Assembly: GCA_030062745.1 (NCBI GenBank)
Contig: CP099848.1
Location: forward strand, 4,598,685-4,662,684
Length of the DNA stretch: 64,000 nucleotides
Source: Capitulum mitella
Lineage: Eukaryota > Arthropoda > Thecostraca > Pollicipedomorpha > Pollicipedidae
Reading direction: 5' to 3'
Numbering within the stretch: the first letter of the stretch is position 1; each line of letters starts with the position of its first letter. Made by a program: the position numbers and the translations under genes. Under the pieces are notes generated by a model, which was not told the DNA's origin, searched no databases, and saw only the letters and a list, made by a program, of their open reading frames with translations. Positions 7,170-59,883 of the stretch are shown here, piece by piece.

Positions 7170-7851
7170 ATGTACACGTTTCACCGCGGCGAGCGGCGAC
7201 TGTGGCGCTCCACGGCCAGCCTGGCCGGCGACGTCAGCGACTCGTACTCGTGGTGCTACATTTACGAGCAGGGCGGCCGCGCCGAGCCGGACGGCGCCGA
7301 CGCCGTGCAGGCGCGGCCGGAGCCGGCCGCGGTCACGGCTGACGTCACGGCAAAGGTCACGGCAGGGGTCACGGCGGAGGCCCCGGGCGAGGTCATCGCT
7401 GACCGGCGGCCGGCCCCGGACGAAGAGTGTCCGACATGGAGGACCGAGATGCACCTGCGGCTGCAGGCCGAGCGGTCGAGCAAGTATTTCAAGAGCGCGG
7501 CGGTGAAGGCGCCCCTGGGGAGGAACTTGGTCGAGAAGTTTGAGAACTTGGGCCGCCGGGCCGGTGGGTCCGCGTCGCTCGGTGGGCGTCGCTCCGGGCC
7601 CGGTACTGGTTCCGGACAGGTGACGCGCGCTGACCGGAGCTCCCGGCTAGAGCCGGGCGCTTCCGGAGGCCGGGCGCCGCGACCGCGCGACGTCCAGGAC
7701 ACGACGCCGCCCTCTGGCGGGTCGCCACTGCCATCTGGCGGCCGAGGCGGCGGCGAGGCCGGCGGGAGAGCCCAGCGCCGCGCCCCGTCCTCTGCTCCGC
7801 CGGCCCGGCAGCAGGGTACCGCCCCTGTCCGCGTACCGCCTGAGGACGTCA
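7170..7851 (+). CDS. Candidate 5' exon, disordered protein
   Basis: The ATG at 7170 follows an in-frame TAA at 7113 and opens a frame that runs to 8204. The first part has mixed composition (SYSWCYIYEQ, and a helix-like stretch ending KFENLGRRAG); the later part is Gly/Pro/Ser/Arg-rich. I end it at the donor TCA|GTGAGC (phase 1), which joins in frame to 8285. An alternative donor at 7619|GTGACG is phase 0. No family was recognised. It could be an alternative first exon of the RIM-BP gene. The extreme GC content leaves several frames open, so this call is uncertain. Confidence 0.4.
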
Positions 7852-11089: not shown

Positions 11090-11360
11090 GGGCCGCGTCT
11101 GCGTGTCTGCGGCTGTGTGTCCCGACTGGGCGGTGTCCGTGTTTGTGTCTGTGCTGAGCGATGCTGAACGTGCTACGTGTTTGTGTCTGTGCTGAACGCG
11201 CTATGTCCGCAGCAGCGATCCGGTCCAACGCACGGCGATATGTCTGTCGCCGCTGAGCTGTACGCGGCTGCGTATCCGAGCTCAGCGGCGTCCGTTTGCG
11301 AGTCCCTGCTGAGCCGTGTCTGTGTGTCCCTGCTGAGCGGTCTCCGTGTGTTTCCGCAGC
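11090..11360 (+). repeat. Duplicated acceptor region before an exon
   Basis: Phrases such as GTGTCTGTGCTGA and CCCTGCTGAGC recur. The sequence CCGCAGCAGCGATCCGG at 11208-11224 resembles the true exon start CCGCAGCAGCGGTCCAG at 11355-11371. The acceptor copy lies 147 nt (49 codons) upstream, and the interval is open in the exon frame. Confidence 0.75.
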
Positions 11361-12623: not shown

Positions 12624-12788
12624 TGGGAGCTGATCAGTTCCGCTATCAGACGGGGTCGGTATAGGTCAGACTGTCACGACTGGGAGCTGATAAGTTCCGC
12701 TGTCGGGCAGGGTCGGCACTGGGGGCTGATCATTTTCGCTGTCGGGCAGGGTCGGTACTGGTACCTCATCAGTTCTGCTGTCGGACAG
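12624..12788 (+). repeat. 39-57-bp tandem repeat carrying splice acceptors
   Basis: Units start near 12624, 12681, 12720 and 12759, built on TGGGAGCTGATCAGTTCCGCTGTCGGGCAGGG-like sequence (shown in part). Acceptor-like GTCGGGCAG occurs before 12711 and 12750, and the true GTCGGACAG before 12789. These are spaced 39 nt, i.e. 13 codons, and the frame stays open. Confidence 0.88.
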
Positions 12789-13265
12789 GGCTCGAAGGAG
12801 ACCCAGCGGCCGGAGAGGACGCGGCTGCGGCCCGCCCGCCAGGTGCCGCAGACCAGAGCCGTTCCCGTGGAGCAGCAGCTGAAGACGACCGGCGCCAGGC
12901 AGAAGACGGCAGCCTCGCAGGAGAAAACGGCAGGCGCGCGGCAGAGAACAGCGCCGACGGCCGACGCCGAGCAGAAGCAGGCCGGCGCGCCGCAGAGGAG
13001 AGCGGTGGCCGGACAGAAGGCTGCCGTTCCGCAGGCGAAGGTGGCGACCAGGCCGTCTCAGCAGAGAGCCGGCGAGCAGGCGGGTGCCGAGGCGACCCTG
13101 TCCCGCATCGCGGCGCCCCAGCAGCGGGCCACGCTGACGTCGAGGCAGCGCGAGAGGGAGGCCGACTACCAGCGCCAGATCAAGGAGCGCAACGCCGAGA
13201 TCAGGCGGCTGAAGCAGCAGATGAAGGACATTGGCGACAGGCTGTCCGGTAGTCACGAGGTCCAG
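12789..13265 (+). CDS. RIM-BP: RIM-BP long exon, low complexity plus coiled coil
   Basis: Phase 0-0, 159 codons, from after GTCGGACAG to CAG|GTAAGC. The first two thirds are rich in Gln, Ala, Arg and Lys (QKTAA, QEKTAG, QRTAP-like near-repeats). The last third is a clear coiled coil (REREADYQRQIKERNAEIRR and following). Human RIMBP1 has a comparable helix, LLRESQREVLRLQRQIALRN. Upstream acceptor copies could lengthen it in frame by 13 or 26 residues. Confidence 0.88.
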
Positions 13266-28166: not shown

Positions 28167-28302
28167 GTTCGAGAGTTGGAAAAGAAGACTGAGGTTCAGA
28201 GTTTGAGGCACGAGGAGCTAATGCTGGAAATGTCGTCGCTCAAAAAACAGAACAAGAACAAGGGCTGGTTAGACGGTAGTCCGGAGGGAACCATTACACC
28301 AG
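28167..28302 (+). CDS. RIM-BP: RIM-BP exon, end of coiled coil
   Basis: Starts in phase 0 after TGGTTGTCAG and ends in phase 1 at CAG|GTGAGC. It begins VRELEKKTEVQSLRHEELML, equivalent to the family's ARVRELEEQCRSQTEQ, then turns into a Gly/Ser/Thr linker. Confidence 0.95.
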
Positions 28303-28729
28303 GTGAGCCTTAAAAGTGATATAAGGTGGAGCTTAGAATGACTACCGTGGCACATTGTTTTCTCACTTGTTTGTGGCGTTCAAATTTTGAAATACTTTCA
28401 GATGGACAAATGTGGGCACGTAAGATATTGGCAAAGAACGGTTTCCTACTGAAGAGCGATTTTGAGTCGATATCGTAAATGGCTCAAGATGGCGCTTGTT
28501 CGTGCACTATTGAGTTCCGCAGCTTGCCCCTGTTGCTGGACATAACTCGCAGGGGACTAAAACGCTGAGTCTTTAGAGCGTAGGAAATCATTTTCGTGCA
28601 ACGTCTCAGTGCCATGTCTGGCATGCGTCCCAGCGAGGCCATCGGTCTGTTGCGTCACAGACGACACATCCTGCAGTGAGGCGGCCACTGTGGTGTCCCC
28701 ATACTGGACGCTACTCTGTAGTGACGTGA

Positions 28730-29355
28730 CCGTCGTGTGTCCCCAGACTCGATGCTGCCCCGTACTGAGGATGGCCGTCGTGTGTCCCCAGACTCGTTGC
28801 TGCCCCTTTCTGAGGGTGGCCGTTCTGTTGTGTCCCCAGACTCGATGCTGTCCCGAACTGAGTACGGCCGTTGTGTGTCCCCAGACTCGATGCTGCCCCT
28901 TACTGAGGGTGGCCGTTCTGTTGTGTTCCCAGACTCGATGCTGTCCCGTACTGAGTACGGCCGTTGTGTGTCCCCAGACTCGATGCTGTCCCGTACTGAG
29001 TACGGCCGTTGTGTGTCCCCAGACTCGATGCTGCCCCTTACTGAGGGTGGCCGTTCTGTTGTGTTCCCAGACTCGATGCTGTCCCGTACTGAGTACGGCC
29101 GTTGTGTGTCCCCGGACTCGATGCTGTCCCGTACTGAGGGTGGCCGTTCTGTTGTGTTCCAAGACTCGATGCTGTCCCGTACTGAGGGTGGCCGTTCTGA
29201 TGTGTTCCCAGACTCGATGCTGCCCCGTGCTGAGGATGGCCGTTCTGATGTGTTCCCAGACTCGATGCTGCCCCGTGCTGAGGATGGCCGTTCTGATGTG
29301 TTCCCAGACTCGATGCTGTCCCGTCCTGAGGATGGCCGTTCTGATGTGTTCCCAG
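28730..29355 (+). repeat. 45/48-bp tandem array of splice-acceptor copies
   Basis: About 13 units plus the true exon start. Each reads TGT(C/T)CCCAGACTCGATGCTG and then a variable half. Unit length is 45 or 48 nt. Nearly every unit keeps CCCAG|ACTCG; two have lost the AG context. There are no stops in any plus frame. The last copy is the real acceptor of exon 29356-29460, so the array sits at the 3' end of the intron. Confidence 0.93.
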
Positions 29356-29460
29356 ACTCGATGCTGCTATCGAACGAGAGCACAGCGCGCTCCACGCCGG
29401 TCGGCACGGCCGTGACCCCGGCCAGTCTGGAGGCGCTGACTGAGGTGGACGAGACGCCTG
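29356..29460 (+). CDS. RIM-BP: RIM-BP exon, Ser/Thr linker
   Basis: Phase 1-1, between GTGTTCCCAG and CCTG|GTGAGC. It encodes (D)SMLLSNESTARSTPVGTA and on to EVDETP. I start it at the last copy of the acceptor array because unique, linker-like protein begins there. An earlier start would add 15- or 16-residue units in frame. Confidence 0.85.
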
Positions 29461-29982
29461 GTGAGCTGGCCGGTGACCCCGGTGACCCTGACCGCACTGG
29501 GAGACCCCGGCGGGGGGTCTTCCAGTGCGGCCAGTGGTCGTGAGCATGAACTCCTGCCTAGGTGTTCATGCAGTCATCTTGCCGATCGATTTTACTGTCC
29601 GATTCCTGTTTGCTTGTTTCGGGTGCAATTGCCGTTTTGGATTCTTTGTCGCAGTTTTATATCGTTCACTGTTTCCGAAAATATTGCAGAGAGCGTTAGT
29701 TCTATTTGCGTGCCAGACACACGAAAGGACCTCGTGAAACGACACATGTGCGTTCGAGCAACTTGTTTCATTCACCCAGTTCAGAAACCACGAAATAATT
29801 CGTGTACGAATGGGAAGAACTCAGTAATGAGTGGACAGTTGGCGTACCATTGGACGAAGGCCACTGAATGGCGCGCCTCCAAATTGATTTCAGCGCTGAT
29901 GTTCGCGTGTAAACGTTGCAAACTAATTTCCGGGTGAATTTCCGGCAAAATGTGGTCACCATGTCACGTGCGGTCGTTACAG

Positions 29983-30132
29983 GCTGGTCGCAGCGTCACA
30001 CCGACATCCAGCTGCCGGCCTCCACCACGGCCCGCTCCGTGGCCACCAGTCTAGAGCTGGACAAGATCATGGCCAAAATCGAAAACGACAACCGTGTGCT
30101 GGCGGAACTAGACAAAAACCGATCCACCATTG
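29983..30132 (+). CDS. RIM-BP: RIM-BP exon, linker with helix
   Basis: Phase 1-1, between GTCGTTACAG and TTG|GTGAGC. Its features include LPASTTARSVATSLELDKIM and then NRVLAELDKNRSTIG. I take it as the conserved helix before the RIM-BP linker. Confidence 0.92.
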
Positions 30133-32993: not shown

Positions 32994-33129
32994 GAAAGAT
33001 GGGAGTCGTAAACGGCATCATTCCCGGCCTGTTACCGACAAACCTGATGCACATGGTCGCCCCGCAGACTGGAGTGGTAGACGTCCTGGATATTCCAGGG
33101 AAGGGAAAATGCCAGGTGCACATAGCCAG
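32994..33129 (+). CDS. RIM-BP: RIM-BP exon before SH3-I
   Basis: Starts in phase 1 after TCTTTCCAG and ends in phase 2 at CCAG|GTGAGA. It encodes TNLMHMVAPQTGVVDVLDIP and then KCQVHIA, the stretch that leads into the first SH3 strand (human equivalent RIQVFLA). Its last codon is completed by the next exon. Confidence 0.95.
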
Positions 33130-35615: not shown

Positions 35616-36139
35616 GTGAGCACTGGACGGAGCCGGCCAGCCGGCCGCACGGCGACGAGCGGGGCGGCGCCCGTGTGGTCGGAACGGAGGCGTTGGGGAA
35701 TGGCGCCCTTCTGGCGCCTAAGGGAGACAGTGTAGTCGTAATGTGCTGCGCTGCGAAGTACAGAACTGGCTGTGGGCTACGTGATGTGTCCGAATCCCGG
35801 AACTTTCGCGCTGTGGACGGAGAAGGCACTTTGGTGGAAGCTGATGAAGACTGCTTTGTGCTGAGAGTTATTCATGACTGGTTAAGCTGAACCAGCATAC
35901 GGGTCACGTTGCAACATTCAGCGGGTCAGTCTAGCTGTCTGAGAACATTTTCTTGCATTTTACATGGTGCTGCCAACGGTGGCTAATATTTTCTCTCGAA
36001 ACGACACAGCAGCGTTATGTGATGGTCCCCTGCCAAAGGTGGGCGCACCTACGAACGTTATAACTACAGAGCTTTTGCGCTGTGTCGTCTGCCTTTGTCT
36101 TGGCGGCAGTCCAGGGTTTCGGCTTCGTCCGCACGCAGT

Positions 36140-36300
36140 GAGCTGACTGTGAGCTGACGCTGAACTGTTGGTGAGCCGACTGTGAGCTGATTGTGCGCTG
36201 ACTGCGAGGTGACCGTGAGGTGACAGTGTGTTGACCGTGAGCTGGCTGTGAGCTGCGGTGAGCGATTGGTGAGCTGCCAGTGAGCTGATGATGAGCCGCG
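36140..36300 (+). repeat. GTGAGCTGA-type short tandem repeat
   Basis: The words GTGAGCTGA(C/T), GTGAGCCG and GTGAGGTGA repeat about every 10-11 bases right up to the acceptor of the next exon. Each word resembles a 5' splice site. Confidence 0.85.
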
Positions 36301-41539: not shown

Positions 41540-41836
41540 AGGTCACCAAGAACTCAGCCGGCACCGGCCGCGTGGTGGACGGTTTCGGCGAGGACGAGTT
41601 CGAGTCGCGCGGCCCGTGGGGTCCGCGGCGGCGGCCGGCTGAGCGGGGCCGGCCGGCCTCGTCGCCCCACCAGCCGGGCGGCGGTCCGGAGTCGGCGCAG
41701 GGCATGGCCGCCGCCAGCCCGGGCCGGCAGCCGCACGGCCACCGGCGGCCGGACGGGTACGGCGAGCCGACCGGCCGCGGCGGCCGACGCGACAGGGCGG
41801 CGGCGGACCCTGGCTGGCACGGAGACAGGGAAACAG
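41540..41836 (+). CDS. RIM-BP: RIM-BP exon, Gly/Arg/Pro-rich linker
   Basis: Phase 1-1, between GCGCTCAG and ACAG|GTGAGT. It starts EVTKNSAGTGRVVDGFGEDE and then becomes Gly/Arg/Pro-rich. The end of the exon is repeated downstream with its donor (see 41820-41975). Confidence 0.85.
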
Positions 41837-41975
41837 GTGAGTCTGCCGGCACGGAGACAGAGAAACAGGTGAGTCCGGCCGGCACGGAAACAGGATGACA
41901 GGTGAGTCCGCCGGCACGGAGACAGAGAAACAGGTGAGTCCAGCCGGCTTGAGGACGGGGAAACAGGTGAGTTCA
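41820..41975 (+). repeat. 32/33-bp tandem repeat of a splice donor
   Basis: ACAG|GTGAGT recurs with GT at 41837, 41869, 41902, 41934 and 41967. Between are copies of CCGGCACGGAGACAGAGAAA. Four decoy donors follow the first one. Unit length is not a multiple of three, so skipping to the next donor shifts the frame. Confidence 0.93.
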
Positions 41976-42411
41976 GTGTCTATCTGGCCCGCCTGCGGCC
42001 GTGTGTAATACTCAGCCGGAGGCCTTTTATTTGGAGATCGGAGACTCGGTATCGGTCGCAAGACTGTCATCATCAGGACTGTTACAGTGAGAACTCTGCG
42101 AAAATCCAGCCTGGGCGCCATGTTTTAGTCATGTTCGTTGTCCAGGCTGTTTAATGTTCTGTGCGATATTATCGATCATACACTGCTAATTGCGTCAAGC
42201 AGGATTACAACAATAACGCACGTATTTTCCAGAGGTGTTTTGGGGACTTCCACTTGTTTTGGAATCCCTTTTCAGTAGTGTGCACAGCGTCCCACGTGGC
42301 CTACGGCGTCGTCGGATGTTGTTCCTGCCATCTACAGTGTGAGACCTAGACCTGTTCTCTCGTGACTGACGACGTCCCTCCTTCGTTTGATCGCCTCCGT
42401 GCGTTGCGCAG

Positions 42412-44092: not shown

Positions 44093-44224
44093 GTGGAGCT
44101 GTCTTTCAAAACGGGTGATATCATCCACGTGTATGGCGACATGGGCGACGACGGGTTCTACCTAGGTGACATCAACGGTGTACGCGGCCTGGTGCCCTCG
44201 AATTTCCTCACAGACGCGCCGCAG
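44093..44224 (+). CDS. RIM-BP: RIM-BP exon, SH3-III second part
   Basis: Phase 0-0, 44 codons, between TGATTTGCAG and CAG|GTAAGA. It encodes [40 protein letters not shown]. Human: [40 protein letters not shown]. Confidence 0.98.
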
Positions 44225-53106: not shown

Positions 53107-53664
53107 ACGGACGAGCTGACGACGGCGGCCACGGCGACCGAGACGACGCCGAGAGACGGCAGCAACAGCGCTGGTAAGGCGGCGCCGCCGGCTGATGCTC
53201 CGCCGCCGCCGGCCGGTGCGCCGCCGCCGCCGGCCGGCGCGCCGCCGCCGCCGACCGGCGCGCCGCCGCCGCCGACCGGCGCGCCGCCGCCGCCGACCGG
53301 CGCGCCGCCGCCGCCGACCGGCGCGCCGCCGCCGCCGGCCGGTGCGCCGCCACCGCCGACCGGCGCGCCGCCGCCGCCGGCCGGCGCGCCGCCGCCGCCG
53401 GCCGGCGCGCCGCCACCGCCGACCGGCGCGCCGCTTTCCGATGCGGCGGACTCCCTGCTGGGCGGGCTGGGCTCGGCCGGCGGCCTGTTGCGCGGCCTGG
53501 GCGGCGCCGCCCAGGCGCCGGCTACCTCCCTGCTCAGCTCGCCGGCCGCCGCCGGAGCCAGTCTGATCCAGAAGCTCGGCGACGTCACCGGCGAGGCCGG
53601 CGGCGCCGTGGGCGGCCTCGTGTCGCGGGGCAAGGAGTTGATCTTCAAGCGGTTCGGCTTGTGA
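53107..53664 (+). CDS. RIM-BP: RIM-BP terminal exon, Pro-rich C-terminus
   Basis: Phase 0 start after CACGTTACAG; stop TGA at 53662-53664. 185 codons: a Thr/Ala start (TDELTTAATATETTPRD), eleven PPPP(A/T)GA units (53200-53430), then a Leu/Gly/Ala-rich tail ending SRGKELIFKRFGL. The proline block is a possible ligand for SH3 or profilin-type domains, including the protein's own SH3s (inference). I believe the KELIFK(K/R)FGL ending is shared with insect RIM-BPs, but from memory only. Confidence 0.9.
   Translation, partial: TDELTTAATATETTPRDGSNSAGKAAPPADAPPPPAGAPPPPAGAPPPPTGAPPPPTGAPPPPTGAPPPPTGAPPPPAGAPPPPTGAPPPPAGAPPPPAGAPPPPTGAPLSDAADSLLGGLGSAGGLLRGLGGAAQAPATSLLSSPAAAGASLIQKLGDVTGEAGGAVGGLVSRGKELIFKRFGL
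53200..53430 (+). repeat. 21-bp coding repeat, 11 copies
   Basis: In-frame units of CCGCCGCCGCCG(G/A)CCGG(C/T)GCG encode PPPP(A/T)GA. The order of the variable residue is A,A,T,T,T,T,A,T,A,A,T. Third positions are almost all G or C, which also leaves long open frames on the opposite strand. Confidence 0.95.
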
Positions 53665-58466: not shown

Positions 58467-59094
58467 GTAAGAAAGTGGAGTGCTCTTCATTTTGTAAGGA
58501 TATCATCAACATGATGTCACATTGATGGTAATCACTGTTCTGTTGCAGGCACATACAGTGTCTCAAAAATTGAATGTTTTTGATGCCATTACCTGCTGTA
58601 GGTTTGCTTAAGCTCTAACCAACTAGTTTTTGTCTTGACCTACCAGTTCCAGTTCTTTTGTGTTGTATTCTTTTGTATTGGATATGATTCAGCCTGTCCT
58701 GTGTGTTTTACATTTTTTGTTTCAACAATCATGAACTAACAATTTTACTATCAAATTTAAAAGGCGTGGTCATGTCATCATCCAAAGTGGAAAGTATTCC
58801 ATGGAGAGTAAACTGCAGTTCTTATTTTGAACCATGCATGGAGAGATGTTTTCTAGCTGGTAGGGCTAAAACTACTTTGAGGCTTTTTGTTTCTATAAAA
58901 CATCACAGAACAAATGGAAAAAATTGTCATGGTTGGTAAATCATCTCACTCCAAGCAAATGCAAATGCCCAGTGCTTTTATATCACATCCCTCTAAAAAT
59001 GCCTTTGCCTGAGTGTCAGTGCAGGCTTGAGTTGAGGTGTGGCAGGGTTCTGTGCAGACATCTATTACCATACTGTTGCCATGGTCTGCTTCAG

Positions 59095-59278
59095 CATGTA
59101 GCAAGTCACTGGCACAGGGTGGCTTCTTCACCAAGAATGGGGAGTATTACTGTTCAGAGGACTACCAGAGGCAGCACGGCACCAAGTGTGCTGTCTGCTC
59201 TCAGTACGTGGAGGGAGAGGTGGTCACAGCACTGGGAAACACCTACCACCAGAAATGTTTCCTCTGTGCTCGCTGCAG
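59095..59278 (+). CDS. ABLIM: ABLIM exon, LIM1 end and LIM2 start
   Basis: Phase 1 to 2, between GTCTGCTTCAG and TGCAG|GTATGG. The first codon completes CKAC, then SLAQGGFFTKNGEYYCSEDY closes LIM1. LIM2 opens with CAVCSQYVEGEVVTALG and HQKCFLCARC. It has only three CpGs despite conserved coding sequence. Confidence 0.97.
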
Positions 59279-59883
59279 GTATGGTCCTAATTGTTGTGAG
59301 TGCTTGGAATTTTTTGTCTGTGGGAATTTATCAGCTGAAGGGATTCCTGGGTCTTACATTGAGTGGGAAAGTCTCCATGATTTGTTTGCTGCATACTATA
59401 TATGCATATGCTAGTGATTCCTGGGTACTAGCTGATGAGTCTATGCATTATTTCAATTTTTTGACAGGATAGAAGTGTAATGGAGGCATAATTTGTTTCT
59501 TCCATGGTCAGTAATACTATATCACACCATAGGTATGCAGATGTATGTAAAATAACCAAAATGGACATGACATTAAGTTAATACTGTAAGTACTTCAAGT
59601 TTGGTCCCCTCATAGCTGTCAGTGCATTTATTGAGACTATATGATGGGACCCAATATAGGCAGTACCTGGTAAGTTATTTCTCCATTCAGTTTTACTCCC
59701 ATAGTAGCTACTGCTTTATCTTGTGTTGGCAAATTTTGTAGAATGTGACAACACAACACAACACAAGTGACATGAAGTAGCTCATCCAGTTGGGCTGTAT
59801 CTGAAGATGATAGAGAAATCAGTGGCCAGGCCTGTCCCAGTGCCCTCTCTGTACCATGAAACGCCCGCCCACATGGTTCACAG

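Follow-up and report, generated by a model that had tools for sequence, protein, structure and literature searches.

Tandem repetition of a predicted splice acceptor in the RIM-BP gene of Capitulum mitella

A predicted splice acceptor of the RIM-BP gene of Capitulum mitella lies at the end of a tandem array in which the intron end and the exon start are repeated together. Its sequence shows a genuine and striking array, and the best reading is a minisatellite that duplicated this intron–exon boundary. The window, the whole stretch of 64,000 nucleotides that was analysed (contig CP099848.1 of assembly GCA_030062745.1), supplies the coordinates used throughout.

The acceptor array and the exons around it

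The acceptor copies and their lengths of 45 or 48 nt were found where the original prediction had placed them. Fourteen junctions of the CCCAG/ACTCGATGCTG type span 28747–29356 on the + strand, spaced exclusively by 45 or 48 nt, and TRF, run independently, returned the array as 28730–29367 with a score of 907. The array and its predicted surroundings are as follows.

28167–28302, + strand: predicted coiled-coil exon B, phase 0 in and 1 out, VRELEKK... frame, with donor CAG/GTGAGC at 28303
28703–28746, + strand: decayed outermost (fifteenth) copy of 44 nt, without AG at its upstream junction and with TAG and TGA in the exon frame
28747–29355, + strand: tandem array of 13 units, each with an 11-nt exon-like start and an intron-like half with pyrimidines that ends in AG (once in GG)
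28747, 28792, 28840, 28885, 28933, 28978, 29023, 29071, 29116, 29164, 29212, 29260, 29308 and 29356, + strand: exon-side starts of the 14 junctions
28885–28977, + strand: 93-nt block, copied at 29023–29115 with one mismatch
29356–29460, + strand: predicted linker exon C, starting at the last acceptor copy, phase 1 in and 1 out, with a donor at 29461
29983–30132, + strand: predicted exon D, next after C, with a fitting phase

Five units measure 45 nt and eight measure 48 nt. The AG is kept in 13 of the 14 junctions and CCCAG in 12, the altered copies being those at 29116 (CCCGG, without AG) and 29164 (CCAAG). The tandem units contain both an intron end and an exon start, the arrangement called a 'mirage' in lancelets (discussed below). 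The last junction coincides with 29356, the start of predicted exon C; the boundary that the array abuts is itself a prediction, matches exons B and D in phase, and leaves exons B, C and D in one joined frame. Between 28725 and 29543 no stop interrupts the exon frame; this agrees with exon C and with the stop-free frame noted previously. The 14 junctions, 13 of them with AG, support the multiplication of a splice acceptor and, as all spacings are multiples of three, the use of an upstream copy would insert units of 15 or 16 residues in frame, as had been proposed.

The units show turnover. Three pairs are identical (28885 and 29023, 28933 and 28978, 29212 and 29260), and the copying of the 93-nt block is, as far as the sequence tells, recent array turnover. 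The identical pairs and the copied block indicate minisatellite behaviour. Letter differences among the units are found in 13–15 of 48 columns.

By its domain matches, the gene on the + strand is RIM-BP. The structures found for SH3-II are those of RIM binding protein 2 (2csq_A, E 5e-31) and of RIM-binding protein isoform F (4z88_A, E 7.6e-30); SH3-I matches 1wie_A (E 5.4e-21), and exon 44093–44224 is recognized as SH3 by Pfam. Both SH3-I and SH3-II are thus closest to RIM-BP structures, and the identity given to the gene earlier holds; its FN3 part is weak, with one fn3 match (E 5.9e-4) that falls below the Pfam gathering score. Judging by order, strand and phase, the coil exons are probably part of this gene. 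Simple ab initio chaining gave 14 exons, including those at 11360, 12431, 12789, 39158, 41162, 41540, 42412 and 44093. The training set of this chain consisted of eight exons of the gene itself, 2228–2344 and 44093–44224 among them, for which it is therefore not independent. Exons A–D are absent from the chain and were placed by eye. Elsewhere in the window, a LIM-domain exon at 59031–59414 has actin-binding LIM protein 2 as its best solved-structure match (1v6g_A, E 1.2e-13).

Splice signals and coding content of the units

Most units carry the signals expected of an acceptor. In 13 of the 14 junctions a branch-site-like CTGAG precedes the end of the intron-like half by 23 or 26 nt; at the outermost, 28747, no CTGAG-like branch site is present in the 45 nt upstream. 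The yUnAy branch-site motif, from which CTGAG differs at the last base, and the splice-site score tables are approximate. With these tables the 13 AG-bearing copies score from 0.6 to 4.4. The copy at 29356 (3.0) is not the highest, as 28933 and 29071 reach 4.4 and 28840 reaches 4.0; 28747 scores 1.1. The other predicted acceptors that were scored range from -0.6 to 6.6, when two that were scored at starts 1–2 nt off are omitted. The array holds eight AGs scoring at least 1, compared with 2.5 per 633 nt outside it, a threefold excess that is due to the repetition itself. No usable donor was found within the array, where the best one scores -1.3, and internal exons within it were ruled out by this value. 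The copies are thus candidates for acceptors but not for exons, since acceptor signals are present and a usable donor is absent. With CTGAG in 13 of the 14 copies, in-frame use of the upstream copies is therefore mechanically possible.

The sequence of the units gives no sign that they are maintained as coding DNA. With the 3-nt gap placed after column 30, the variants among the 13 units reduce to 18 minimal events (15 nonsynonymous, three synonymous and no stops), where 71% nonsynonymous, 28% synonymous and 1% stop would be expected without constraint. Across eight gap placements there were 13–15 nonsynonymous and three or four synonymous events and no stop, which is about neutral; the probability of at least as many synonymous events was 0.75–0.92 and that of no stop 0.83–0.85. 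The absence of stops among the variants carries little weight, because it is expected at that probability. Coding constraint on the units, which would have supported a length-variable segment made by alternative acceptors, was thus tested in these 13 units and none was seen. Base composition is in line with this result. GC at codon positions 1, 2 and 3 of the array is 0.65, 0.55 and 0.60, so that position 3 shows little bias; the gap between positions 2 and 3 is wider in the SH3-I exon (0.39 versus 0.96) and in exon C (0.59 versus 0.85).

We rejected the open frame as coding evidence. It is weak evidence because four of the six frames are open across 28747–29355, and any one frame of a random 45–48 nt unit is free of stops in 57–59% of draws. 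Low variation of the exon-like half, in which one of 11 columns varies, was likewise dropped as evidence (P 0.037 with gap columns included, 0.05–0.12 with letters only, depending on gap placement). Antisense open reading frames of 269 and 300 aa lie over the array and look like by-products of the repeat unit. The evidence for a protein role of the array, as read from the DNA, is weak.

Splice-site arrays elsewhere in the gene

Three further minisatellites, one acceptor array and two donor arrays, span predicted splice sites of the RIM-BP gene.

12679–12790, + strand: second acceptor array (TRF), with starts at 12711, 12750 and 12789, 39 nt apart, in frame and open
2322–2644, + strand: donor array (TRF), with donors at 2345, 2414, 2480 and 2549 and a GC-altered one at 2618, spaced by 66 or 69 nt
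41812–41976, + strand: CAG/GTGAGT donor array (TRF), at 41837, 41869, 41902, 41934 and 41967, spaced by 32 or 33 nt

The second acceptor array precedes a long predicted exon, 12789–13265; its three positions were counted by eye, the motif script having caught 12789 alone. The donor array at 2345–2618 is a 69-nt minisatellite in which an exon end is repeated together with its donor; its spacings are divisible by three and the exon frame reaches a TAG about 14 codons past the first donor. The donor array at 41837–41967 sits at the end of predicted exon 41540–41836. Its first donor fits the SH3-II exon, and none of the four downstream copies keeps the phase of that donor. Splice-site arrays thus arise in this gene without protein use, because the extra copies of the donor arrays are not productively usable. 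At these predicted splice sites in-frame use is allowed in both acceptor arrays and in neither donor array. The chance that an array is both in frame and open is about one in five (one third for the frame, about 0.6 for openness), and the agreement of the two acceptor arrays, noticed after the fact, is suggestive only. That acceptor arrays, unlike donor arrays, preserve the frame and stay open could hint at selection on their use, a point against the plain minisatellite reading given below. A separate 11-nt array, GTGAGCTGACT, at 36138–36288 stops some 20 nt short of the FN3 exon and contains several branch-site-like stretches.

Minisatellites are not significantly enriched at the junctions of this gene. 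They cover 6.7% of 2000–45000, and when the 19 arrays of that stretch were shifted, four of 33 predicted junctions lay in arrays against 2.2 expected (P 0.22); with the array at 28747–29355 left out the count was three of 32 (P 0.24). The junction list combined the ab initio chain with exons chosen by eye. It omitted chain exon 7272–7619 and chain acceptors 33616, 35523 and 39928, whose addition would weaken the enrichment because none lies in a listed array. Also omitted were the unplaced exons (an FN3 exon near 37.0 kb, 32994–33129 and the second half of SH3-II) and chain exon 53107–53341, which is outside the tested stretch and ends within an array at 53183–53434. Two junction starts were 1–2 nt off (27641 for 27640 and 36307 for 36309), with the overlap unaffected. 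A donor-consensus test of 28 arrays found a repeated donor with a score of at least 6 in only one (41812–41976); donor 2345, at 5.9, is below this cut. Several cuts were tried: P was 0.21 at 6, 0.10 at 7 and 0.015 at 8, whereas at 9 no array qualified. The array at 53183–53434 has a 21-nt unit and, on the + strand, an open frame that encodes a PPPPxGA repeat.

Origin of the acceptor array and its known relatives

A minisatellite, or 'mirage', that duplicated the RIM-BP acceptor and was later altered by slippage or unequal exchange, with splicing mainly to one late copy, very probably accounts for the array. As we infer its course, the 3' end of the intron and the first 11 nt of exon 29356 would have been tandemly duplicated, and slippage or unequal exchange of blocks of one to several units would then have changed the array. 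Nearly every copy would be a candidate acceptor, as the unit holds the exon start, the AG and, before them, a stretch partly rich in pyrimidines and a motif resembling a branch site. Splicing would be expected mainly at one of the last few copies, to give an exon of about 105–300 nt, and with an in-frame unit the occasional use of other copies would be harmless. We favour the mirage origin because the last unit of the array runs up to the predicted start of the exon, the copy at 28703 has decayed with in-frame stops and the variants look neutral, and because this gene has three more arrays across predicted splice sites and the lancelet structure is alike.

A functional role, in which alternative acceptors vary the linker between the coiled coil and the first SH3 domain by steps of 15 or 16 residues, either stochastically or under regulation, can be compatible with a minisatellite origin and is possible, if doubtful. 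The near-universal AG and CTGAG (each in 13 of the 14 junctions, the latter 23 or 26 nt upstream), the spacings in multiples of three, the open exon frame and the scores of 28933, 29071 and 28840, which exceed that of the last copy, all speak for it, as does human IFI6, whose minisatellite units serve as alternative donors (PMC4526556, in excerpt). It is opposed by the lack of coding constraint, by the openness of four of the six frames, by the unproductive extra donors of the sister arrays and by the lancelet mirages, which the excerpted reports describe as not disturbing splicing (PMC3087553, PMC3902484). The length-variable protein segment of the original prediction was not supported, given the unconstrained units, their little GC3 bias and the unproductive extra copies in the donor arrays. 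Such a role would be mechanically possible, with little in the sequence to favour it other than units that keep the frame and splice signals that are intact. Somewhat less probable, and offered as speculation, is a wider scheme in which a self-contained 3' splice-site module was multiplied in units that keep the frame. Random choice among the acceptors, together with copy-number change, would then give a synaptic-scaffold tether of adjustable length; acceptor arrays, being leaky, would survive only in frame, whereas donor arrays need not keep it. Splicing to the outermost intact copy at 28747, which would make the whole array constitutively coding as a 714-nt exon with about 13 peptide repeats, is very improbable: the frame is open throughout and the AG is intact, but this copy alone lacks a CTGAG-like branch site in the 45 nt upstream and scores low, and the units have little GC3 bias and neutral-like variants. 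An assembly artefact in array length or order is scarcely more probable. Arrays of short units that are nearly identical are easily mis-assembled, and one lancelet mirage was aberrantly assembled in a draft, according to an excerpt of PMC3087553; the array as such is nevertheless likely real sequence, because its units differ in letters and its flanks lie outside the repeat.

If the array is only a mirage, a RIM-BP gene with four arrays joins the phenomenon described for lancelets and lets one see, in a natural setting, how the spliceosome chooses among many near-identical acceptors. If splicing does use the copies, the length of a synaptic protein tether would depend on their number in the minisatellite, and one would expect arrays on the acceptor side to stay in frame.

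Among the matches listed from the open-licence literature, in searches none of which combined RIM-BP with repeats, no title concerned a boundary array in RIM-BP. Two further papers, on prawn lectin repeats (PMC7536079) and earthworm intron repeats (PMC12783039), have, in their excerpts, no direct bearing. The closest relatives are the boundary-spanning minisatellites of lancelet genes (Adh3, globin, TnC and PGBD5), named 'mirages'. As excerpted, PMC3087553 and PMC3902484 describe them at both kinds of boundary and as unstable in length, with regular splicing undisturbed where tested and cryptic use still possible; PMC3087553 also suggests that new introns may come from them. Like those mirages, the RIM-BP units span an intron end and an exon start, often keep the splice signals and show turnover within the array, and the arrays of the gene affect both 5' and 3' boundaries. 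Compared with the excerpted lancelet cases, the unit lengths here are multiples of three and four arrays lie in one gene. There are 14 junctions here versus three and six repeat units in BflGb6, and the unit is shorter than that of BflGb6 (150–160 bp) and inside the Adh3 range (10–72 bp). Two human systems are also related, as far as their excerpts go. Internal tandem repeats at exon–intron boundaries alter splicing or exon length in paralogues from segmental duplications (PMC2812944); these are likewise boundary minisatellites, but are primate-specific and supported by transcripts, whereas the RIM-BP array is known from sequence. In IFI6, as here, the minisatellite unit bears a splice site of which several copies are on offer; there the sites are donors whose use has been reported, and in RIM-BP they are predicted acceptors.
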